From assembly GCA_039583875.1 (NCBI GenBank), contig CM077151.1, positions 22,686,208-22,750,207 of the forward strand: a DNA stretch of 64,000 nucleotides, given 5' to 3'. This DNA is from Platanthera guangdongensis (lineage: Eukaryota > Streptophyta > Magnoliopsida > Asparagales > Orchidaceae). The notes beneath the pieces were generated by a model. It did not search any database, had not been told where the DNA came from, and saw only the letters and a list, made by a program, of their open reading frames with translations. This document shows positions 12,491-44,382 of the stretch, in pieces; position 1 is the first letter of the stretch, and each line of letters opens with the position of its first letter. The position numbers were made by a program, and so were the translations under genes.

Positions 12491-12640
12491 CCTGTATTTT
12501 TCTTATGTTGTATTGAGTCCAGCCCCCGACCAGCTGAGTCGGGGGGGTCATGTAACCCATCTTTTTCCCCTATTGAGGATGTAAGATTTGCTAAGGACTG
12601 ATTGAGATGCTTAGTTCTTTTGCTCCGAGACGGTCCCGCT
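12491..12640 (+). other. Post-coding segment before repeat array
   Basis: Sequence after the protease with stops in all plus frames. It includes CCCCCGACCAGCTGAGTCGGGGG (12525-12548), an inverted repeat that can form a hairpin and might act in 3' processing (inference). Confidence 0.4.
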
Positions 12641-13800
12641 GCCCAGGCTCTCACTAGCTGGGCAGGGCCGGTGGTACCTCTCGTTGATGCCTGGTAGTCT
12701 CACCTCGAGATGGATTCCGCTGCCAGGCTCTCACCTAGCTGGCAGGGCAAGTTGATCTCTCGGAGGGTGGGAAGGTCTCACCTCGAGATGGATTCCGCTG
12801 CCAGGCTCTCACCTAGCTGGCAGGGCAGGTTGATCTCTCGGAGGGTGGGAAGGTCTCACCTCGAGATGGATTCCGCTGCCAGGCTCCCACCTAGCTGGCA
12901 GGGCAGGTTGATCTCTCGGAGGGTGGGAAGGTCTCACCTCGGGATGGATTCCGCTGCCAGGCTCCCACCTAGCTGGCAGGGCAGGTTGATCTCTCGGAGG
13001 GTGGGTAGGTCTCACCTCGAGATGGATTCCGCTGCCAGGCTCCCACCTAGCTGGCAGGGCAGGTTGATCTCTCGGAGGGTGGGAAGGTCTCACCTCGGGA
13101 TGGATTCCGCTGCCAGGCTCCCACCTAGCTGGCAGGGCAGGTTGATCTCTCGGAGGGTGGGTAGGTCTCACCTCGAGATGGATTCCGCTGTCAGGCTCCC
13201 ACCTAGCTGGCAGGGCAGGTTGATCTCTCGGAGGGTGGGTAGGTCTCACCTCGGGATGGATTCCGCTGCCAGGCTCCCACCTAGCTGGCAGGGCAGGTTG
13301 ATCTCTCGGAGGGTGGGAAGGTCTCACCTCGGGATGGATTCCGCTGCCAGGCTCCCACCTAGCTGGCAGGGCAGGTTAATCTCTCGGAGGGTGGGTAGGT
13401 CTCACCTCGGGATGGATTCCGCTGCCAGGCTCCCACCTAGCTGGCAGGGCAGGTTGATCTCTCGGAGGGTGGGAAGGTCTCACCTCGGGATGGATTCCGC
13501 TGCCAGGCTCTCACCTAGCTGGCAGGGCAGGTTGATCTCTCGGAGGGTGGGAAGATCTCACCTCGGGATGGATTCCGCTGCCAGGCTCTCACCTAGCTGG
13601 CAGGGCAGGTTGATCTCTCGTGGAAGCCAAGTCCTTAGCTCCGAGATGGATTCTGCTGTCAGGCTCTCATCTAGCTGGCAGGGCAGGTTGATCTCTCGTG
13701 GAAGCCAAGTCCTTAGCTCCGGGATGGATTCCGTTGTCAGGCTCTCACCTAGCTGGCAGGGCTGGTTGATCTCTCGTGGAAACCAAGTTTGTTACCCAGA
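12640..13800 (+). repeat. 78-bp tandem repeat, 14 copies
   Basis: Fourteen 78-bp units from 12710, preceded by one diverged unit (about 12632-12705). Each carries GATGGATTCCGCTG, CTAGCTGGCAGGGCAGGTTG and ATCTCTCGGAGGGTGGG. Two sites (GGGAAGG/GGGTAGG and CTCGAG/CTCGGG) partly alternate, suggesting growth by 156-bp dimers. The last three units differ in the GTGGAAGCCAAG part, forming an older edge. As 78 is divisible by three the array is open for 372 codons on the plus strand and 172 on the minus; I do not call a protein. Confidence 0.92.
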
Positions 13801-14053: not shown

Positions 14054-15346
14054 CTACCTCCCCCCAGTGGCCCTCTTTTGGGGGGCGGGTGCGGCAAGTT
14101 GGCTAACACCAGCCCCCGTCCCGATAGGTGCCTGGCGGCTTGGTGGGGCGAGACCGGCCGGGGGCCGGGGTCTCGCCCCTGCTCCTTCTAGCCTGGCGGC
14201 CTGGTGGGGCGAGACCGGCCGGGGGCCGGGGTCTCGCCCCTGCTCCTTCTAGCCTGGCGGCCTGGTGGGGCGAGACCGGCCGGGGGCCGGGGTCTCGCCC
14301 CTGCTCCTTCTAGCCTGGCGGCCTGGTGGGGCGAGACCGGCCGGGGGCCGGGGTCTCGCCCCTGCTCCATCTAGCCTGGCGGCCTGGTGGGGCGAGACCG
14401 GCCGGGGGCCGGGGTCTCGCCCCTGCTCCTTCTAGCCTGGCGGCCTGGTGGGGCGAGACCGGCCGGGGTCCGGGGTCTCGCCCCTGCTCCTTCTAGCCTG
14501 GCGGCCTGGTGGGGCGAGACCGGCCGGGGGCCGGGGTCTCGCCCCTGCTCCTTCTAGCCTGGCGGCCTGGTGGGGGGAGACCGGCCGGGGGCCGGGGTCT
14601 CGCCCCTGCCCCTTCTAGCCTGGCGGCCTGGTGGGGCGAGACCGGCCGGGGGCCGGGGTCTCGCCCCTGCCCCTTCTAGCCTGGCGGCCTGGTGGGGCGA
14701 GACCGGCCGGGGGCCGGGGTCTCGCCCCTGCTCCTTCTAGCCTGGCGGCCTGGTGGGGCGAGACCGGCCGGGGGCCGGGGTCTCGCCCCTGCTCCTTCTA
14801 GCCTGGCGGCCTGGTGGGGCGAGACCGGCCGGGGGCCGGGGTCTCGCCCCTGCTCCTTCTAGCTTGGCGGCCTGGCGGGGCGAGACCGGTCAGAGGCCGC
14901 GGTCTCGCCCTTGCCCCCCTGCAGTTTTACCTTCTTGTCCTCGGGGGGAATTCCCTCTTTACCCCCGGCGTGGCTGTTTTCTATTGGCCCGAGGTTTTCT
15001 GGGTGTAAGGGTATTTCGGTCTTTTTACCCCCAGGACTTGGAAAAAACTATAAATAGACCCCTTGGGTGCCTTGGAGAGGGGCCTTTTCTTAACTTCCTC
15101 CTCCCTTAGCTTCTTCTTGGTAGAGTAGAGAGAGCTCTCCAAGGCGCCTAGCCTAGCCCTTTGGTAAGGGAGGGGAAGAGCTCAGGTAGCCTTCCGGGTG
15201 TGAGTTGGGACCTCCGTGCTAGAGCCGAGGGTCTGTTCATAGTCTCCTAAGTCTCCGGTCCGTGACGTTCTCTCGAGTGTAGTAGGTGTGAGGTCACCCC
15301 TTTCCAGGGACCCCGAACTCCACAGAGGTCAATTTTGGCTTCAACA
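14054..15346 (+). repeat. 3' LTR of TR-GAG-like element
   Basis: Begins shortly after the purine tract (exact base uncertain) and ends TTTTGGCTTCAACA at 15346. It contains 61-bp repeats (14126-14900), a TATAAATA box at 15049-15056, and a unique end nearly identical to 9880-10308. Sequence identity with the 5' copy stops at the same base, which fixes the LTR end. Confidence 0.85.
14126..14900 (+). repeat. 61-bp tandem repeat, 3' LTR copy
   Basis: About 12-13 nearly identical 61-bp units, much more uniform than those at 9144-9875. Each has the GGGGCGAGACC ... GGTCTCGCCCC inverted repeat. The last unit (14880-14910) is diverged (GGTCAGAGGCCG), as is the equivalent last unit of the 5' LTR. Confidence 0.92.
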
Positions 15347-35150: not shown

Positions 35151-35158
35151 AGCTGGAT

Positions 35159-35280
35159 CATTCTTGTCTCGGCGTCAAGGCGAACCAAGGCGAGCGCTGG
35201 GCGCCTTGACGCTTAGGCGTCATGGCGGACGCCTAGGCGACACTAAGGCGAGCAAGTCGCAAGGCGCCATTTTTTTTTTT
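35159..35280. repeat. Left terminal inverted repeat and GGCG-rich subterminus
   Basis: CATTCTTGTCTCGGCGTCAA starts the element. Many GGCG-containing short palindromes follow (GGACGCCTAGGCGACAC, CTTGACGCTTAGGCGTC) up to 35262, then a T-run and A-run (35263-35290). The right end mirrors this (43125-43200, GCCTAGGCGACGCCTAGGCG). These are plausible transposase binding clusters (inference). Confidence 0.85.
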
Positions 35281-35298
35281 TTAAAAAAAAGCAGCCTA

Positions 35299-35680
35299 TC
35301 GACTGCGGTTATTATAATAACCGCAGTCTATACTATCGACTGCGGTTATTAAAATAACCGCAGTTTATAGTATACATTCTATATACTGCGGTTGTATAAT
35401 ACCCGCAGTGTATAGTATACATGCTATAGACTGCGGTTTTATAATAACCGCAGTCGATAGTACACATATTATCGACAACGGTTGTTTAATAACCGCAGTA
35501 TATGTTATATATACTGCGGTTAATAGAATAACCGCAGTATATATTTATTGACCATCGACTGCGGTTATTATAATAACCGCAGTCGATAGTCATATATAGA
35601 CAGCGGTTACAAAAATAACCGCAGTCTATAGTATGCCTGCCAATCTTTAGACTGCGGTTATTATAATAACCGCAGTCTAC
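35299..35680. repeat. Left subterminal palindrome array (9 units)
   Basis: Nine near-perfect palindromes of 23-24 bp, consensus CTGCGGTTATTATAATAACCGCAG, spaced about 45 bp apart by AT-rich linkers that often read TATAGTATACAT. The fifth and eighth units have a changed left arm (CAACGG, CAGCGG). Each can form a hairpin or bind a dimeric protein. The same motif fills the other end. Confidence 0.95.
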
Positions 35681-36214
35681 AGCTCCTTTTTTTTTTAAAA
35701 TAAATTGTTTACCAATTACAAACACAGCTGGAGATTTTTTTGTTCTTCATAGCAGACTAGCAGTTAGCAGTTAGCAGTAAGCAACTAAGCATAGCAGTTA
35801 GCACTTAGCAACTAAGTATAGCTTCTGAATGATCATATGACAAGAAGTAGGCAAGTAGCAACTAGCAACTAGCAAGCACAAATGTTCCAAGTTCCAAGTT
35901 CCAACTACCAAAATCATGTATTCTGTATTCATGAATCATGAATTCATGATATCTCAAATCCTCAATTCTCAAACATCAATACATTCATACAATCATACCT
36001 ATGACCTATCTCAAATTCTCAATTCTCAAATACCATGAAGCAGTAAGCATGTAACAGTAAGAAAAAACAGTGGCAATCATCTATCAATGGTCAAGACTCA
36101 AGAGTCAAGACTCAAGACAAACTTCAGAGAAAGCAATAACAAAAAAGGGAACACAAAAATAGCATATTAGCATGAATAATATTTTTAACATTAACTTTAA
36201 ATAATCATACAAGG
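35681..36214. other. AT-rich 3' flank of transposase gene
   Basis: Contains AGCAGTTAGCAGTTAGCAG-type short repeats (35750-35820, extending loosely to 35875) and ATCTCAAATYCTCAATTCTC repeats (35950-36030). No coding frame. It probably carries the 3' UTR and terminator of the transposase gene. Confidence 0.5.
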
Positions 36215-38889
36215 TCAACTAGAATCATCATCTAGTAAGTCGTCATTGACATTGCAGGTGTTTGGTTGGATGGAGGTACTCGGCATTTGCCCATAATTAT
36301 CATAAATATCTTCATCATCACTGGCAACTACAAAATGATCTAAATCTTCATCCCCTTGAGCTATTAGTTCATTTATTTGAAGATTAGTTCCAACTCCACT
36401 TCGTAAATTTCGAGCCCCAGTTCCAAGAGCTCTCTCTACAGCATCCCATGTGAGATTATCATCATCAAAAACTAGAGCTTCCTCTGGTTTGTTCACCATC
36501 CACTCACTACTCCAGTCGAGCTCATCAAGCACCAAAGGATTGTAATTTCTTCCCTTTTCACGTCTGTCTTGGAATCGTGCTTGTAGACGCCGATTATATT
36601 GGATGTATACAAGATCACTAAGCCTTTGATGTTCCAATCTATTTCTTTTTTTTGTGTGAATCTGAATCAAGATAATTTCAAACTTATTGGTAAATTATTA
36701 AAATAAAAATATTAAAATTTTTATTGAATATTTGTATACTTAGATTACTTACAAACTCAAAAGTACTCCAATTGCGCTCACAACTAGAAGAAGAACAACA
36801 TAAGCCAATTATGCGCAATGCTACCTTTGTAAGGTCAACATTTGGTCCTCCATGTGCACCCCACCAGTCCACTATTCATTTAAGACAGATATAAATTGTT
36901 TGACATATAAATAAATTAAGAAAAAATAAAATGTAAACAATACTTACTTGGATTTAAGGTGGTTCGTTGCCTAATAGTCATAGGCTTTCCAAAACTATTT
37001 CAAGATGCTTTGTAGTTAGTACCTTGCTCGGCAATCTTGTCTTGCAATTCTTGATCGGGCACTAGTCTTGCAATAACATCATTGAAAGCATCTTGAAATT
37101 TCCAGGCATCATCATTATTTTGTTCCTCATATTCAAAATATTTGCCTGGATTTAGAAACAAAGCCGCCCTATACAACTTTTGCTCCATTTGATTTGTCCA
37201 TCTATTTTCAACAATCTCAATAACCTTTTTAAATAATCTTTCTTTGTTATCAAAATGTTGTTTGATCTTTTGTTTGGCTTCTTCCATTGCAGCATATACT
37301 TCAGGCATAGCCGGCCTTTCATCTCCATCTACTAATCGCAAAACTGCAATCAGTGGTTTTCCCCCTTTTAGGCAATCTCTTACTCCATTCCAAAAATTGG
37401 TTGAAAGTATTATTTCAACAATCTGTTTTCCGGCTTCAGTTTTTGCCAAATTAGCGGCATTCCACGAGGGCGACACAAAGAATAATTTCAGCTTCTCCTC
37501 ATGCTTAAGCACACTTTGTAGAGTAAGGAATGATGTTGCAAATCTAGTTACTGAATGCCTAACTAGATCACCGCCTATAGTAGTCCTTATTGCATCAAGT
37601 AAACGAGTGTGTCTGTAGATGAAATTTGTAATCATTCTTGCCTTTCTTATCACTGTTTTGTTCTGTTGTAGCTTGTCTATATCCTCTAGCATTAGATCAA
37701 TGCAATGAGCTGCACAAGGAGTCCAGAATAATGTAGGTCTTTTTTCCATTAAAATTTTACCAGCTGCCTTGTAATTAGAAGCATTGTCAGTCACCACCTG
37801 CAGAGTGCAGACATTTGTAATTATTGAAAGTTGTAGAGTGTAGACTATTAAACTTGTATTTGAAAATTACTAAATTAATGAAACCAAAAAAATTACCTGA
37901 ACAACACACTCTGCTCCTATCTCTCTAATCTTACTATCAAGCAAATCTGATAACATTGTGGCATCTTGAATATGACTGGATGCATCTACGGAACTCATAA
38001 AATAGGATCCTTCTGGACAGTTGACTAGGAAATTGATCAAATGTCTCCCTCTCCTGTCTGTCCAACCATCTGACATAAGTGTGCAACCATATCTTCTCCA
38101 GTACGCTTGATAGTTTGTCTTCATCTCCATGACTTTATCTTTTGTATTTTTTAACAATGGGACTCTCAAATCATGATAACTAGGGCCTTTATAACCAGGC
38201 CCATACTGTCCAACTGCTTCAAGCATGACTTCAAAACTTCGTGCCTTTGCGGCATTGAATGGAATTCCACATTCATAGAACCAATCAGCAACATAACTAT
38301 CAACTCTCTTTTTCTCTTCAGGTGTTCTAAAACATCTCTCGATAGTAGTTTGTGCAGGACCTTTTGCACGTCTATCATCTACTACATCTTCAGGAGCACG
38401 CCTCACATGAGCATCCATAGGCCCCCTTTTTTGTGGCAAGTGAATTACTTTCCTTTTTTTGGCACTTGTCCCAGAACTTGGGACAAATGACGTTTTAGCT
38501 GTAGATAATGTCGGGGATACATTTTGTGACCCCGTTGGTTCTCTTTCTTGGTCACTCTCATTGTCATCATCAACAGTCAGATGCACATTGTCCTTTTTTT
38601 TAGCATTTAAAGCTGAATACATCTCAGCTGCTATTTCAGAAGTAGTCTTCAAACACTTGGATACATCTCCATACCCGCCACATAAGTGTTGCTTCAACCT
38701 TTTGATACCACCCTTTATCAATCTACCACACAAATTACATTTAACTGTATTTTTATCTTCTAGGTTGGGCCAATGACCATACTTCCAACCAGGATCATTT
38801 GACTTTGCTTTTCGTTTAGGATCCGTTTTTGGATCAAGGTCATTGCTACCAATGGATGGAGCAAGAGTGTTGGTGTTTTGGTCTTCCAT
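36215..38889 (-). pseudogene. hAT transposase (BED, DUF659, hAT dimerisation), 4 exons
   Basis: Exon 1 (38889-37897) starts MEDQNTNTLA. It has a BED zinc finger (WKYGHWPNLEDKNTVKCNLC, then LKQHLCGG) and DUF659 with LMSDGWTDRRGRHLINFLV, where D is the likely first catalytic Asp. Exon 2 (37797-36948) starts VVTDNASNYK with the likely second Asp, then PCAAHCIDLMLEDI and FATSFLTLQSVL. Exon 3 (36871-36753) is DWWGAHGGPNVDLTKVALRI and SSSSCERNWSTFEF, the hAT dimerisation motif. Exon 4 (36661-36215) is HTKKRNRLEHQRLSDLVYIQ to an acidic tail. All introns are GT-AG and keep frame. About 800 residues, normal for the family. A TGA at 37000-37002 in exon 2 interrupts it; otherwise it looks intact. It would cut and paste the element. 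Confidence 0.9.
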
Positions 38890-39184
38890 CTTTCACAAAC
38901 AGGACCTATAGATTGCAGAGTTAGGTCGGGACAATGAAATAAATAACGGCTAAAGAAATCATCAGTCATCACAATGAACAATTTAAAGAACTCATCACTC
39001 ATCAGTCATCACAATGAACAATTTAAAGAACTCTAAAAGACATGCTCATTTAGAAATTAGAAGAGTCAACAAGACCATAAGATCATCAGTTCATCACTAT
39101 AGAGTATAGACAAGACACTACATGATAAATCTAGCAATACAAAAATACATTTGTCATGTACTCATGTGTCAATCAAATCATGAT
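38890..39184. other. Spacer between the two hAT genes
   Basis: Holds a 41-bp tandem duplication (CATCAGTCATCACAATGAAC, at about 38960 and 39001). It should contain the transposase promoter and the end of the Ulp1 gene transcript. No frames of note. Confidence 0.5.
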
Positions 39185-42173
39185 TCATGAAACACAATAA
39201 GTGATTATATAATGACAAATCATATTTCTAATATTATCTATTTTCTCCTGCGAAAATTGTGTCACTCCATGATAGATCTGCAATAAAACAAAATGGTTAA
39301 AATCAATTCAACATAATTATTACCAATCTACATGCACTAGACAGTAACGTCACATACCTTTATCAATGATGACATTGGCCTAGTTTTAAGAGCATCAACT
39401 ATATCAATCATGTAGCACATGATATAATAGCCACATTGAATACTATCTGGTTGTTTTGGGCACTACACAGTAACATAAATAAAAAATTGGTAAGTATTTT
39501 AATTTTTAATTACAAAGGTTTAAATTATAATACATACTCATATATGCTATACATCTAAAACTTACCGGAATCAACTTTGTAAGTTTTATTTTTTTTAAAC
39601 TGGTACGCTGCTCTTTTGCTAAATCTTTTAATGCTCTTCATAAAATAAAAAAAGAATAAGTTTATAGTAAAATGTAAACAACTAGGAAAGTAAGTAAATA
39701 ACACATTAATAAACTTACTTTGTAATGACATTCTTAATATCATCACGAATGTCATTATTTAAGGGATCAAGCCAATAAACTGTATAATTATTATAATCAA
39801 TAATAGCCAACATCCAATGTTCCCTGTGAAACAAATGAAATAATTAATAACTTAATTAGAATAAAAAATAGTAATAATCATTGATATTTGATACAAAGAT
39901 TTTTCATACTTACAATCTATTATAGGACACAAATAATAAAGAATCTGATTGGAGTTGACTAAGCGTCCTAAGCCTGATTTTTAAATCTTCAACTCGTGTT
40001 TTTAAATGTTCTTTGGCATAGTCATCATTAATAGCAAAAATGGAATGTGGATTATGAAAATATACACCAGTATTGTATGTAAATTCCTTTAATTGTGAGT
40101 CTATGTACCTGCAAAAACATGTAAATTCAAAATCAATTTATATATTAATAAAAATTCTTACTTTTATAATATTTGATACTCAGTAGTCAGATGCACAATA
40201 CTCACCCAATACATGCTAATATGATGTTAGCTCCAATCATTTTCATATTTAAAAAATCATACAACTCTGAATTTTCAAAGTACGTACATGTTGATTCAAC
40301 ACTCCCAAATACTGTTGAATCTAACATTAGAGATATTATTTTATCTTCATTCTCCATCTTACTTATAAAACTGGGCAAGATATCAATGAATTCATTTGTA
40401 GCCTGTGGAAATAAAAGAATTAATATTGTGGAATGTGGACATCAATATTGAATTCATTGATTACATAAAAGTCAAAAAAAATATTATAAATTATAATACC
40501 GTGCAAGCTAATTGTTCATGTCTACTCTGACTACTCTCAGGTTCATGTGACCTGGATTCGTACTCCGGCTGAGACTGAGAAACCAAAAAGTAACAAAAAA
40601 TAATTAATTACCTGCGCAACAAAAAGAGAAGACAACATTTCATAAAAGTATAAATATTTAAAGTTTAAACATAATAATACTCGTGCAACTGGAAGTGCAG
40701 CACTTGTTCCAGTTCTAGGACTGAACATGCGCATAAGCTCTTCAATTTGATTCTTCACAGTGCTAATCTCGGCTTGTTGCGCTTCTTCTTTTTGGCTCCA
40801 TAATTTTTGTTGCGCTTGTTCTCTTTGGATCCATAATTCTTGTTGCTCTTGTTCTTTTTGGATCCATAATTCTTGTTGCTGGCTCAATCTTTCTTGTACT
40901 ATAGCTTCAACATCTTCAATACGAGCTATTGGTGTTGGTGTCCTATCACTCCGCCTATCATTTTTGAAAAATCTTGTAATGGTGGAAAACTTGTCACCAG
41001 CTCTAACTCTGCCCGGATGTTCTTGGCCTAAAACAGATGCAAGGATGTCATTTCTTCCCTGTGACACTGTTTCAGCACTCCGGGACTCTTGGCTCGACAA
41101 CTCGTCCTAAACAAAAGTAATAAATATTTGAAGTTGGAACAGAATTGCAGATACGAAAATATACTTCTCAAGAAATATTACTATCGATAATTTACAAATG
41201 ATGAAATGATTCATTTACACTTACCATTTTAGATGCCAATTCAGCTGCATCTTTACTAATGTATTCACCCGTCTTTCTTTTATGACCGGCTTTCCATAAC
41301 TCCGCACGTGAAATTGGTGCAGCTTCACCTTGTTCAATCTTGACAAAAAAATGAAAATAAATTATCATACAAATAATTAAGAAACCAAATTTTAAAATAC
41401 AAAAAACGGAAGAGAAGTAGAGAGATAATACCATTCTTTTTTCTAATCCAGAATAACCCATTCTGGAAGTAGTATGAAAGGCCTTTCGTGTTTTTGCTCT
41501 CTCAGTATTAACCTTACTTTTCTCCTACAAAAATAAATGTGTTAATACTTAATTTGGTTATAAGTTATAAAGTTAAAAAATGATATAAACATTGAATTTA
41601 ATAAGAAGTTAAGAACACAACCATATATTCTGTAGTAGTGCGATGGTCGACAAAAACTCTCCAGTCTTCGGCAGTAATAAAACTATATTTGACAGGAACA
41701 TTGTATCGATGCTCCAAATCAACATTTTTTACATAATTGACAAAAAGTTTGGATTTCCAAGTCCTCCAACTTTCACCCATGCTTTTCATTATTGCCTTGT
41801 AATGACCATCAATATTATCAAAAAATATCTGAAAATAATAGAAAATATCACTTAAAAAGTAACTAAAACACCAAAGATATGTAATCACTAATCACTCATA
41901 AGTCATAACAAGGTTACGTACATTTAATTCTGCCCATATGTGATCTTTAATTTGTTTATCAACATCCCTCCATGCAACATATGTAATTGGCACATAACAC
42001 TTCACAAGAGATCACATCAAACTCATCAATTTATTTGTTTCAGGACCGGGAATAATGCGGCCATCATCACGGAAAGAAATAATAAGCTTCCTCCCCTCTA
42101 GCCTAAGCTTATTAAGTTCATTCATTTTCGTGAAGCCTCTTGTTGACCTCGATGAAGCTCCCTTGTCCGACAT
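39185..42173 (-). pseudogene. Transposase_24-like/Ulp1 protease gene, 12 exons
   Basis: ATG at 42173 (MSDKGASSRSTRGFTKMNEL). By eye, exons are 42173-41922, 41828-41622, 41524-41432, 41338-41225, 41106-40681, 40577-40500, 40402-40206, 40108-39914, 39823-39719, 39635-39566, 39462-39358 and 39277-39185; nearly all junctions are clear GT-AG. The N-terminal half (ITAEDWRVFVDHRTTTEYM, GYSGLEKRM, AELWKAGHKRKTGEYISKDA, and a Gln/Glu-rich coiled coil ELWIQKEQEQQ) matches the plant transposase family Transposase_24. The C-terminal half is a Ulp1/C48 protease: His in EHWMLAII, Asp in VYWLDPLNND, Gln and Cys in QPDSIQCGYY. One TGA (42012-42014) interrupts exon 1. Role in transposition is unknown; such proteases elsewhere remove SUMO-like tags. 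Confidence 0.85.
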
Positions 42174-42648
42174 TTTCCTGTAAAACCCTAAAAAAAACCT
42201 AAACCATACAAAAAACCTAAACAAAATTCATACAAAACCGCAATGATATTGAGCAACTAGTTATTAGTTAGTAGTTAGTAGTTACTAGTTACTACTTACT
42301 ACCACACAATGTTTATACATGTATAAATGTATAAATGTATAAATGTTTAACAAGGTTCCTAAGGAGGTTTAGACATGTATAAATGTATAATAATAATAAA
42401 CACACAATGCTTAGCAAAGAGCAAAGAGATCAAAAGTTCAAAAACCGAGAAAAGGTATTAAGAAATAGTATACCTAAGTGAGAATATTAGTTTTGTCGAA
42501 GAAGAATCGTTCGAAGCAAAGGAGAGCAGCAACTTGAACAAAATCGCCTTTAGGGTTTCTCGCAAAGCGCAGGGACTGTAAAAAGAAGAACCAAAAACAC
42601 GGGGAAACAAAAGATTTTTACGGCTCGGGGTTAAAAAAAGATAGAGAC
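42174..42648. other. 5' region of the Ulp1 gene
   Basis: AT-rich with short repeats GTTAGTAGTTA (42263-42300) and ATGTATAAATGTATAAATG (42318-42345, again near 42373). It is expected to hold the promoter and 5' UTR. TATA-like tracts are too common to choose one. Confidence 0.4.
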
Positions 42649-43099
42649 GACTGCGGTTTCTATATAAACCGCAGTCTATACTACATTCCACTGCGGTTAT
42701 TATACCGACCGCAGTCTATTCTCTGCAAGGAATCGACTGCGGTTTGAACATAACCGCAGTCTATATTACATTCCACTGCGGTTATTGTACCAACCGCAGT
42801 CTATTCTCTGGAATGAATAGACTGCGGTTGGTATAATAACCGCAGTCGATATGAGAATGGACTGCGGTTTCTACAACCGCAGTCTAATCTCTGGAAGGAA
42901 TGGACTGCGGTTTGAAAAGAACCATAGTCGGTGTGAGAATGGACTGCGGTTTATACAATACCCGCAGTTTATAGTAGCATAGACTGCGGTTTATATCACA
43001 ACCGCAGTCTATTCTAAACTACACTGCGGTTATTATACAAACCGCAGTATATGCTCGGTTTCATACAATAGACTGCGGTTTATATATAAACCGCAGTCT
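42649..43099. repeat. Right subterminal palindrome array (11 units)
   Basis: Eleven units of the CTGCGGTT ... AACCGCAG palindrome. Loops vary (TCTATATA, ATTATACCG, TGAACAT and others). Linkers commonly read CTATTCTCTGGAAKGAAT, unlike the left array's linkers. Unit 7 has lost its right arm (GAACCATAG). Together with the left array it defines the element's subtermini. Confidence 0.95.
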
Positions 43100-43205
43100 A
43101 TTCCCATATTTTTTGTAAAAAAAAAAGGCGTCAAACGCCTTGTTTACAATTGGGCGCCGTGACGCCTAGGCGACGCCTAGGCGACGCCATGACAAGAATG
43201 AGCTG

Positions 43206-44382
43206 GATATTAAAAATGTCTTTTTGAATGACGATCTTTAAGAAATAGTCTACATGCATCAACCTCCCGGGTTTGAGACCACGGGCGATTCTTGTGTATG
43301 TCATCTTCGAAAACCTATTTATGGTCTCAAACAATCTCTCAAGGCTTGATTTGAAAATTTTAGTAAGGTTGTTCGTGACGTTGGATTCAAGCGGTGCTCG
43401 GCTGATTTCTCTCTCTTCACTCGTCATCAATCAACTACGACTGTCATTCTCCTGGTTTATGTGGATGATATCTTGATTACTAGTGATGACACCACAGGAA
43501 TACAGAAAATCAAGCAACACTTGAACTCCGTTTTTCAAACAAAAGATCTGGGGGCTCTCAGGTACTTTCTTGAACTTGAGGTTACAAGACGGTCTGATGG
43601 TCTTGTTCTGTCACAACGAAAGTATTGCCTTGATCTTCTCTACGATGCTGGCTACTTTGGGTGTAAACATGTGGAAACTCCGATGGATATCAACCACAAG
43701 TTATGTGCTCATGGGTCTTACTTTGATTCCCTACTTACAAACACTGCGTATTATCGGCGTCTTGTGAGAAAACTGATATACCTAACAATTACAAGACCTG
43801 ATATTTCGTTTGTTGTTGGAATGGTCAGCTAATTTATGCATGCTCTTCGAAGTTCTCATCTCCAGGCAGTAGAATGTATCCTTAGATATTTGAATATAGC
43901 TCCTCGACAAGGATTGGTATATAAGTCATCCTCCTCTCTATCTCTTATTGCATACTCAGATGCGGACTGCGCGGGCTCCCTGGATGATCGACGTACCTAC
44001 TTTGTGGTAATCTTATCACTTGGCGTAGTAAGAAGTTAGAGTTGAAGCTGAGTATCATGCAATGACAGTCATTGTATCTGAACTCACCTGGCTTAAGGGT
44101 CTACTTGGTGATTTGGGGGTCACTTTATCCTCACCAGCAACCTTGTTTTGCGATAGTCAGGCTGCAATTCACATTGTAAAGAATCTTGTGTTTCATGAGC
44201 GGACCAAGCACATTGAAGTTGACTGTCATTTCGTTCGTGAAAAGATTCAATTAAAGAAGTTAGATCTGGAGCGTGCTCCTGCGTCAGGACAAGTTGCTGA
44301 CATTTTCACCAAGGCACTACCACGACAAATGTACCATCAATTATTATCCAAGCTTGATGCATATGACTTGTACGCTACAGCA
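43206..44382 (+). pseudogene. RT and RNase H of copia A (after hAT)
   Basis: Continues LDIKN from 43206. [14 protein letters not shown] (43253), YGLKQSL, then LLVYVDDILITSDDTTGIQ (43450-43506, catalytic YVDD), FLELEVTRRSDGLVLSQRKY, and TRPDISFVVGMVS then TAA at 43829. RNase H has YSDADCAGSLDDRRT (43954-43998) but lacks the usual ~35 residues that follow, resuming at [33 protein letters not shown] and [18 protein letters not shown] end it. [20 protein letters not shown] is at 44300. Dead through stops and a deletion. Confidence 0.9.

Follow-up and report, generated by a model that had tools for sequence, protein, structure and literature searches.

A recently amplified hAT transposon family carrying a second gene with Transposase_24 and Ulp1 protease parts in Platanthera guangdongensis

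Introduction

Does a gene that joins Transposase_24-like and Ulp1 protease parts belong to the hAT transposon within which it lies, and if so, what might it do there? The combination of Transposase_24 and Peptidase_C48 is not new, as the first followed by the second has been reported in CACTA elements, including those of Chenopodium (PMC8978399). Ulp1 domains recur in plant transposons, and their precise function in VANDAL-type elements is called unknown by a 2026 review (PMC13317346). Among the matches listed from the open-licence PMC literature, no report of a hAT with Ulp1 or Transposase_24 was found.

Structure of the element

The window, i.e. the whole stretch of 64,000 nucleotides that was analysed, contains a complete hAT element at 35159-43200, with an exact 8-bp duplication, matching ends and two same-strand genes inside. 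Its features are as follows:

35151..35158, no strand: left target site duplication AGCTGGAT, from the sequence
35159..35278, no strand: left tip, end CATTCTTGTC, GGCG/CGCC repeats at 12 per 120 bp by repeat count
35302..35676, no strand: left palindrome array, 8 paired palindromes (arms with at most 1 mismatch), 15 exact half-sites
36215..38889, minus strand: hAT transposase gene, 4 exons (38889-37897, 37797-36948, 36871-36753, 36661-36215), from gene model and Pfam
39185..42173, minus strand: second (Ulp) gene, 12 exons, from gene model, Pfam and Ulp1 alignment
42650..43097, no strand: right palindrome array, 10 paired palindromes (arms with at most 1 mismatch), 19 exact half-sites
43121..43200, no strand: right tip, GGCG/CGCC repeats at 9 per 80 bp by repeat count, end GACAAGAATG
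43201..43208, no strand: right target site duplication AGCTGGAT

The initial annotation had described an 8-bp target site duplication and inverted ends, and both were confirmed by the exact duplication and the tips CATTCTTGTC / GACAAGAATG. The window copy and all five other copies whose ends were fetched have the short terminal inverted repeat CATTCTTGTC at each tip. The element belongs to the hAT superfamily by its 8-bp duplication, its terminal inverted repeats and its BED and hAT-C transposase; tips of the CACTA type with a 3-bp duplication are not what was found. The left target site duplication lies in what looks, by eye, like a copia-like reverse-transcriptase frame.

The transposase gene was recognized as annotated, with DUF659 (E 9e-60), Dimer_Tnp_hAT (E 3e-10) and zf-BED (E 1.5e-4) all scoring above the curated Pfam cut-offs. 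Residues 612-675 of the transposase align to Hermes (E 2e-4), and this stretch includes the C-terminal E; the two D residues of the DDE triad are presumably those in SDGWTD and TDNAS. In the region searched, its two best-scoring relatives among plant DUF659 hAT transposases, from Phragmites and Telopea, are 49% and 60% identical, respectively. Neither PF02902 nor PF03004 appears in the domain lists of the 98 listed DUF659 hAT transposase relatives, a view that covers the transposases themselves.

The second gene

The Ulp gene lies upstream of the hAT gene on the same strand. Its predicted 12-exon model, in which 11/11 introns are GT-AG, bears out the annotated structure of a Transposase_24-like N-half and a C48 C-half: Transposase_24 (PF03004) matches residues 138-257 with E 1.1e-14 and Peptidase_C48 matches residues 464-596 with E 1.4e-6, both above the curated cut-offs. 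Glutamine-rich repeats are encoded in exon 5. The His, Asp, Gln and Cys already seen by eye correspond to H522, D539, Q582 and C588, which align with yeast Ulp1 (1euv) and which we take to be the catalytic His-Asp-Gln-Cys set of Peptidase C48. Transposase_21 (TnpD) was matched by neither of the two element genes in a Pfam scan of those two, and in two protein searches that used the Ulp gene as query, three P. zijinensis gene models were the sole matches, one of these searches scoring only the 7992 candidates that shared most words.

The window copy is not an intact autonomous element, because each gene is interrupted by one in-frame stop, in exon 1 for the Ulp gene and in exon 2 for the hAT gene; on this point the initial annotation, which spoke of an autonomous hAT lineage, is corrected. 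Under the same 12-exon model, the Ulp frame is free of stops, insertions and deletions in 18/29 other copies and broken in 11/29.

Copies and linkage of the two genes

A first look at the genome gave candidates of similar abundance for the two genes, 744 for the Ulp gene and 762 for the hAT gene, from each of which the best 40 were scored, in addition to diverged copies. Among the other copies found by the Ulp gene, 26/29 retain hAT exon 1, which is as much of that gene as these loci cover. Sampling by the Ulp gene is one-sided, and this concern was removed by the search with the hAT gene, in which the Ulp gene adjoins 38 of the 40 best copies, the window's included. The refuting outcome named in the initial annotation, other copies lacking the Ulp gene entirely, was thus not observed. 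The two genes are nevertheless separable, since three of the 29 loci (L014, L017 and L039) have lost hAT coding DNA and retained the Ulp gene in full or almost in full (in L017 the last part of the final Ulp-gene exon is missing too), and Ulp exon 5 was not found at the expected place in two of the 40 hAT-gene copies (C5:27073916 and C17:84867494).

Ends were fetched for five copies, and all five show perfect tips, arrays and private 8-bp duplications, which makes six insertions counting that of the window. The duplication of one older copy matches at 7/8. Both genes are also kept in two diverged copies (86-88%), and of 14 spots examined where the hAT gene would lie next to diverged Ulp-gene copies, 9 contain hAT coding DNA; of the others, one holds the left element part only, one lies inside a second Ulp-gene copy and three match nothing. 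In a gene model from a second species, the two genes are joined in the same order. Enclosed by the same hAT ends, the two genes have moved into several sites as a unit, and the window contains a member of a two-gene hAT family that amplified recently. A one-off capture in a single copy is contradicted by the 744 and 762 candidates, by the linkage in both directions and by the private duplications.

Origin of the second gene

Since Transposase_24 with Peptidase_C48 is a CACTA arrangement (PMC8978399), the Ulp gene might be the remnant of a CACTA or Mutator element nested in the hAT. A scan around the Ulp gene looked for tips of the CACTA type and for inverted ends of 10 bases that differ at one position at most; it could miss strongly decayed ends, and it found neither CACTA nor Mutator-like ends with a duplication. 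Within the element, CACTA occurs ten times and TAGTG once (in exon 2), and these make no CACTA...TAGTG pair; two 10-mers with a 3-base AAA match look like chance and are no credible inverted ends. Moreover, the Ulp gene is common to many copies with hAT ends. On the basis of a scan that decayed ends could escape, we rejected a nested origin, which we regard as extremely improbable.

A recent capture from a resident CACTA was considered as well. Two DNA groups can be distinguished among the ten best Transposase_24 loci of the genome (L078-L087, from 70 matches), and one locus, L079, resembles CACTAs in having a DUF4216 frame. The similarity of these ten loci to the N-half of the Ulp gene is confined to short pieces (21-39% alike, E 4e-5 to 0.3), which also speaks against the nested element, and within about 1.5 kb of them neither exact half-sites nor the simple Ulp1 Gln...Cys-Gly pattern was found. 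Such weak matches, with neither half-sites nor the Ulp1 pattern, make a recent local capture unlikely, and it was rejected; the donor of the Ulp gene was not found among these ten best of the 70 matches.

Selective constraint

Between subfamilies, both genes are under similar purifying constraint. Comparison of the two diverged copies with the young group gave dN/dS of 0.47-0.54 for both genes; for the hAT gene against the window copy the values were 0.54 and 0.47, and 0.78 for the two old copies against each other. Ulp-gene pairs among diverged copies gave 0.47-0.69. Differences of the Ulp gene fixed between groups gave dN/dS 0.44-0.52 (Fisher p 0.0008 to 0.006, three pairs tested), with one codon of two changes counted twice, one of these as a stop. 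A dN/dS of about 0.5 is weak constraint, and the old copies include neutral decay after insertion.

These values bear on the view that the Ulp gene was captured once and has since been passively copied without helping the element. Plant hATs do pick up host sequence, as described for Hatvine-6 (PMC2528002), the Ulp gene is broken in the window copy and 11 others, and the full set of changes among young copies is neutral-like, the replacement/silent ratio being 1.08 in the Ulp gene and 1.27 in hAT exon 1. Changes common to at least two young copies gave 0.67 and 0.63, respectively, from few changes. On the other hand, the dN/dS of the Ulp gene between subfamilies is below 1 and close to the transposase value, the catalytic residues are kept, and the gene occurs in nearly all hAT-gene copies scored and in the gene model of the second species, so that a mere passenger appears improbable. 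The proposal that a hAT lineage adopted the gene is thus strongly supported, by the two-way linkage, the six insertions, the diverged copies, the second species and the constraint; of the initial interpretation as a whole, adoption stands, and a role of the protein as an accessory factor, with binding of the palindromes or action on SUMO, is hypothetical.

Subterminal arrays and the possible role of the second protein

The element has two separate cis zones, GGCG repeats at the tips and palindromes inboard. Exact ACTGCGGTT half-sites number 34 in the window versus 0.31 expected, and 34/34 lie within the two arrays. Palindrome arrays are present at both ends of five young and two diverged copies whose end regions were fetched. 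The arm sequence is kept between the two arrays and between copies, and the linkers vary: at five diverged ends, the arms differ at 22/715 sites versus 255/1409 in the remainder, in repeat alignments, which favour pairing motif with motif.

The palindromes could be DNA or RNA hairpins, for example small-RNA sources or recombination sites, and not protein sites. Three units folded as single-strand DNA gave -12 to -16 kcal/mol (z -7 to -12), but any palindrome folds, and a conserved arm sequence with varying linkers exceeds what pairing alone would need, so we hold this reading to be highly improbable.

The arrays could also be candidate sites of the hAT transposase itself, with the Ulp product acting elsewhere, e.g. 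on SUMO-modified transposase or repair proteins, and not binding them. Subterminal repeats bind the transposase in Ac and Hermes, such sites being common in hAT elements, the transposase here has a BED finger, and the arrays recur at both ends of young and diverged copies. Against this, the tips already hold a different dense repeat, GGCG, that would fit the transposase, and Transposase_24 serves as a marker of tnpA, whose product binds the subterminal repeats of CACTA elements (PMC8195511), so the second protein is of a type known to bind such repeats. We consider this alternative rather unlikely.

By analogy, the second protein most likely binds the arrays and would counter silencing or aid transposition, as TnpA and VANC do elsewhere. 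Activation of Spm by TnpA goes hand in hand with demethylation (PMC10398659), arrays of short motifs are bound by VANC, which removes methylation (PMC5735166), and some VANC genes carry Ulp1 (reviewed in PMC13317346). The best explanation overall, to which we give about an even chance, is that the transposase acts at the tips and the second protein brings an Ulp1-type protease to the palindrome arrays; the two cis zones fit two DNA-binding proteins. The transposase would act on the GGCG repeats and the terminal inverted repeat, and the second protein would bind the palindromes via its Transposase_24 part and dimerise via its glutamine-rich, coiled-coil-like region. The protease so placed might strip SUMO from element-bound proteins of silencing or repair, and deSUMOylation would keep the ends open and transcribed or help transposition. 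The second protein would then play for the hAT the role of TnpA for Spm and of VANC for VANDAL. Homology to VANC is unsupported, because no DUF1985 was found among the Pfam matches of both element genes up to E 1.

Relation to known systems

CACTA (En/Spm) elements with a TnpA-type ORF2 share with this element the same domain pair in the same order (PMC8978399), and are likewise two-gene elements with closely spaced subterminal repeats, their tnpA being described as multi-exon (PMC8978399, PMC8195511). Unlike CACTA, the ends, the 8-bp duplication and the transposase here are those of a hAT. VANDAL and Kaonashi MULEs also combine an element-encoded protein (KIU with Ulp1) with noncoding arrays of short motifs, and tandem peptide repeats are present in VANC proteins as well (PMC5735166, PMC13317346). 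As in VANC/KIU-type systems, a Ulp1 domain and motif arrays were found within one element; it is a hAT and not a MULE, with Transposase_24 in place of DUF1985, and its palindromes lie near the ends, whereas VANDAL and Kaonashi have tandem repeats in several noncoding regions.

A broader proposal, which we put forward tentatively and think more likely wrong than right, is that a portable anti-silencing module, consisting of TnpA-like binding, a SUMO protease and matching arrays, has crossed superfamilies: the hAT would have acquired a CACTA-type protein, evolved or taken its arrays, and come to target deSUMOylation at its own ends to escape silencing, aiding the recent burst. With open second-gene copies, a candidate binding site at each end and a CACTA-type gene, this young hAT family offers a compact system for two questions: does a SUMO protease borne by a transposon act at the DNA of that element, and do such modules pass between superfamilies, as fungal TET/JBP genes do (PMC12730594)? 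The fungal hAT7 that carries TET/JBP is, like the element here, a hAT with an extra gene for a chromatin-related enzyme common to transposon superfamilies, and differs in the enzyme, the kingdom and its 7 bp duplication (PMC12730594).

Structure of the element and its two genes

The initial annotation, made from one copy, had claimed a hAT transposon with an 8-bp target duplication, a transposase gene and an upstream 12-exon gene joining Transposase_24 and Ulp1 protease parts (here the Ulp gene). All of this was confirmed for the window copy, and the layout is now extended to a family.

Features of the window copy
35151-35158 and 43201-43208: target duplication AGCTGGAT, flanking the element on both sides
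35159-43200: hAT element, exact bounds from the sequence, starting with CATTCTTGTC and finishing with GACAAGAATG
38889 to 36215, minus strand: hAT gene, four exons, with zf-BED, DUF659 and Dimer_Tnp_hAT matches
42173 to 39185, minus strand: Ulp gene, 12 exons, upstream of the hAT gene

The insertion site, read by eye, is a copia-like reverse-transcriptase frame, and the C-terminal part of the hAT protein can be aligned to Hermes. All 11 introns of the Ulp gene have GT-AG borders; residues 138-257 of its protein match Transposase_24 and residues 464-596 match Peptidase_C48, both above the curated cut-off, and all four counterparts of the Ulp1 catalytic set are present (H522, D539, Q582 and C588). 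Exon 5 contains a 33-bp tandem repeat (window 40773-40879); the stretch it encodes is rich in glutamine and, in our own reading rather than in a tool prediction, resembles a coiled coil. The open frame around this repeat differs in length among copies, often being 161, 163 or 187 codons, and the variable repeat recalls the variable peptide repeats described for VANC proteins (PMC5735166). One in-frame stop interrupts each gene in the window copy.

Three annotated Platanthera zijinensis gene models hold pieces of the element genes and lend the exon model some outside support. P0002 matches exon 7 of the Ulp gene, P0003 spans the exon 8/9 border at the position predicted by the model, and P0001 fuses Ulp-gene residues 223-377 to hAT-protein residues 655-802 (78% identical each), thus another species has pieces of both genes with order and strand unchanged. 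The exon-5 piece of P0001 has a best match of only 84-86% in the genome of the window, so the window does not belong to the P. zijinensis assembly; its source is probably an orchid related to Platanthera. P0001 itself is a RecA-like model whose end consists of Ulp-gene and hAT exons, and P0003 is a prenyltransferase-alpha/LRR model with Ulp exons 8-9 inside; these two may be either element copies in or beside host genes or annotation fusions.

Joint mobility of the two genes

The hAT gene and the Ulp gene insert together as a single mobile unit. A search of the window's own genome with a hAT-gene stretch gave 762 candidates, and among the best 40, which were scored, 35 had an Ulp-gene match at most 6 kb away, on the same strand and side in 35 of 35. 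When the remaining five were probed, Ulp exon 5 was at the expected place in three and absent there in two, which gives 38 of 40 hAT-gene copies with the Ulp gene, window copy included. In the reverse direction, a stretch of the Ulp gene yielded 744 candidates at first look, the best 40 of which were scored and all matched end to end at 98-100%; 30 of these were obtained as loci, 29 of them other than the window copy. The same layout with hAT exon 1, the portion of the hAT gene reached by these loci, was kept in 26 of the 29, and internal deletions had removed hAT DNA in L014, L017 and L039. The deletion derivatives L014 and L039 retain the entire Ulp frame, and L017 lacks part of the last Ulp exon.

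Five copies fetched with both ends all had tips at both ends, arrays with 14-20 exact palindrome half-sites per 721-base piece, and five distinct, perfect 8-bp duplications. Amplification was recent, since the 26 undeleted copies and the window copy differ by a mean of 0.36%. Under the 12-exon model, 18 of the 29 other copies have an Ulp frame without any stop, insertion or deletion, and the Ulp-gene stop of the window copy was found in none of them.

Diverged copies and constraint

The two-gene layout predates the recent burst. The Ulp gene is matched at about 90-95% by four diverged copies (L051-L054). In the two fetched with flanks, the hAT gene occupies its usual position (86-88% over 4.2 kb) and each side has palindromes; the tips of one are still recognisable and its duplication agrees at 7 of 8 bases, and in the other the left tip is decayed and the right end truncated by other sequence. 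Where diverged Ulp-gene copies were probed with another 14 short pieces at the hAT position, 9 of the 14 contained hAT coding DNA; L051 and L053 account for two of the 14.

When the young group was compared with the four old copies and these with one another, dN/dS of the Ulp gene was 0.47-0.69 by pair, with Fisher p of 0.0008 to 0.006 for the three pairs tested. On differences fixed between the groups it was 0.44-0.52, from 17 silent and 36 replacement differences with three of the four older copies agreeing, or 13 and 23 with all four agreeing, one doubly changed codon being entered twice. For the hAT gene, comparing each of the two full old copies with the window copy gave 0.54 and 0.47, and comparing them with each other gave 0.78. 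These values indicate that the Ulp gene has been retained about as well as the transposase; the observed constraint is moderate and in part masked by decay after insertion.

Palindrome arrays and tip repeats

Judged by alignment, the palindrome motif is conserved. The motif ACTGCGGTT occurs exactly 34 times in the window (0.31 expected), all within two arrays, which contain 8 (left) and 10 (right) paired palindromes. Their spacers measure 7-8 bases, except for one of 5, and the distance between centres is mostly 37-51 bp, two gaps being 83.5 bp. The arms are identical between left and right arrays, whereas the linkers are different. Across five diverged ends, variation affects 22 of 715 arm positions and 255 of 1409 positions elsewhere, a contrast somewhat inflated because repeat alignment favours motif-to-motif matching. 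Outside the palindromes and up to about 110 bp from each tip (35159-35278; 43121-43200), GGCG/CGCC recurs at roughly 10-bp pitch, the outer 120 bp on the left having 12 and the outer 80 bp on the right 9, versus 8 in the 6792-bp core. These tip repeats differ from the palindromes further in and probably form a second set of sites, and the two zones are compatible with two DNA-binding proteins. A further left end of the family (L009:9173-9748) has a palindrome array that breaks off into unrelated sequence, by eye perhaps a retroelement insertion.

Relation to known elements and putative function

By the sequence of its ends, duplication and transposase, the element is classified as a hAT; a CACTA identity was rejected as all three are of hAT type. 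Transposase_24 followed by Peptidase_C48 has been described in CACTA elements (PMC8978399), and grapevine MULEs and CACTAs carry Ulp1, while grapevine hATs are said to capture other sequence, ULP not being mentioned among it in the available part of that source (PMC2528002). Fungal hAT7 elements carry a TET/JBP gene, which demonstrates that extra genes of this sort can reside in hATs (PMC12730594). A hAT with Ulp1 or Transposase_24 was not found among the matches listed in open-licence literature, and PF02902 or PF03004 appeared in the domain lists of none of 98 plant hAT relatives, a weak negative because neighbouring genes are not visible there. The element can be described as a hAT whose second gene is of CACTA type and which has candidate target arrays of its own.

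In CACTA elements, the subterminal repeats are bound by TnpA, for which Transposase_24 serves as a marker (PMC8195511), and Spm is activated by TnpA along with demethylation (PMC10398659). In VANDAL elements, VANC proteins bind short-motif arrays and remove methylation; those VANC genes that include an Ulp1 domain reportedly act likewise (PMC5735166; review PMC13317346); domain content rejects a VANC identity for the Ulp gene. Joint insertion, constraint and conservation of the motif are demonstrated. The Ulp protein may function similarly to TnpA or VANC, an analogy from which we infer its palindrome binding, protease activity and effect. Most likely, it would bind the palindromes as a dimer and thereby bring a SUMO protease to the ends of the element, where the protease would oppose silencing or aid transposition.

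Other repeats in the window

A 78-bp tandem repeat (12636-13776; 14.6 copies, 94% alike) lies mostly inside an open frame of 376 codons that encodes repeats of 26 residues. A GC-rich 61-bp tandem repeat follows at 14130-14914 (12.9 copies, 97% alike), and a unit related to it is also present earlier in the window.
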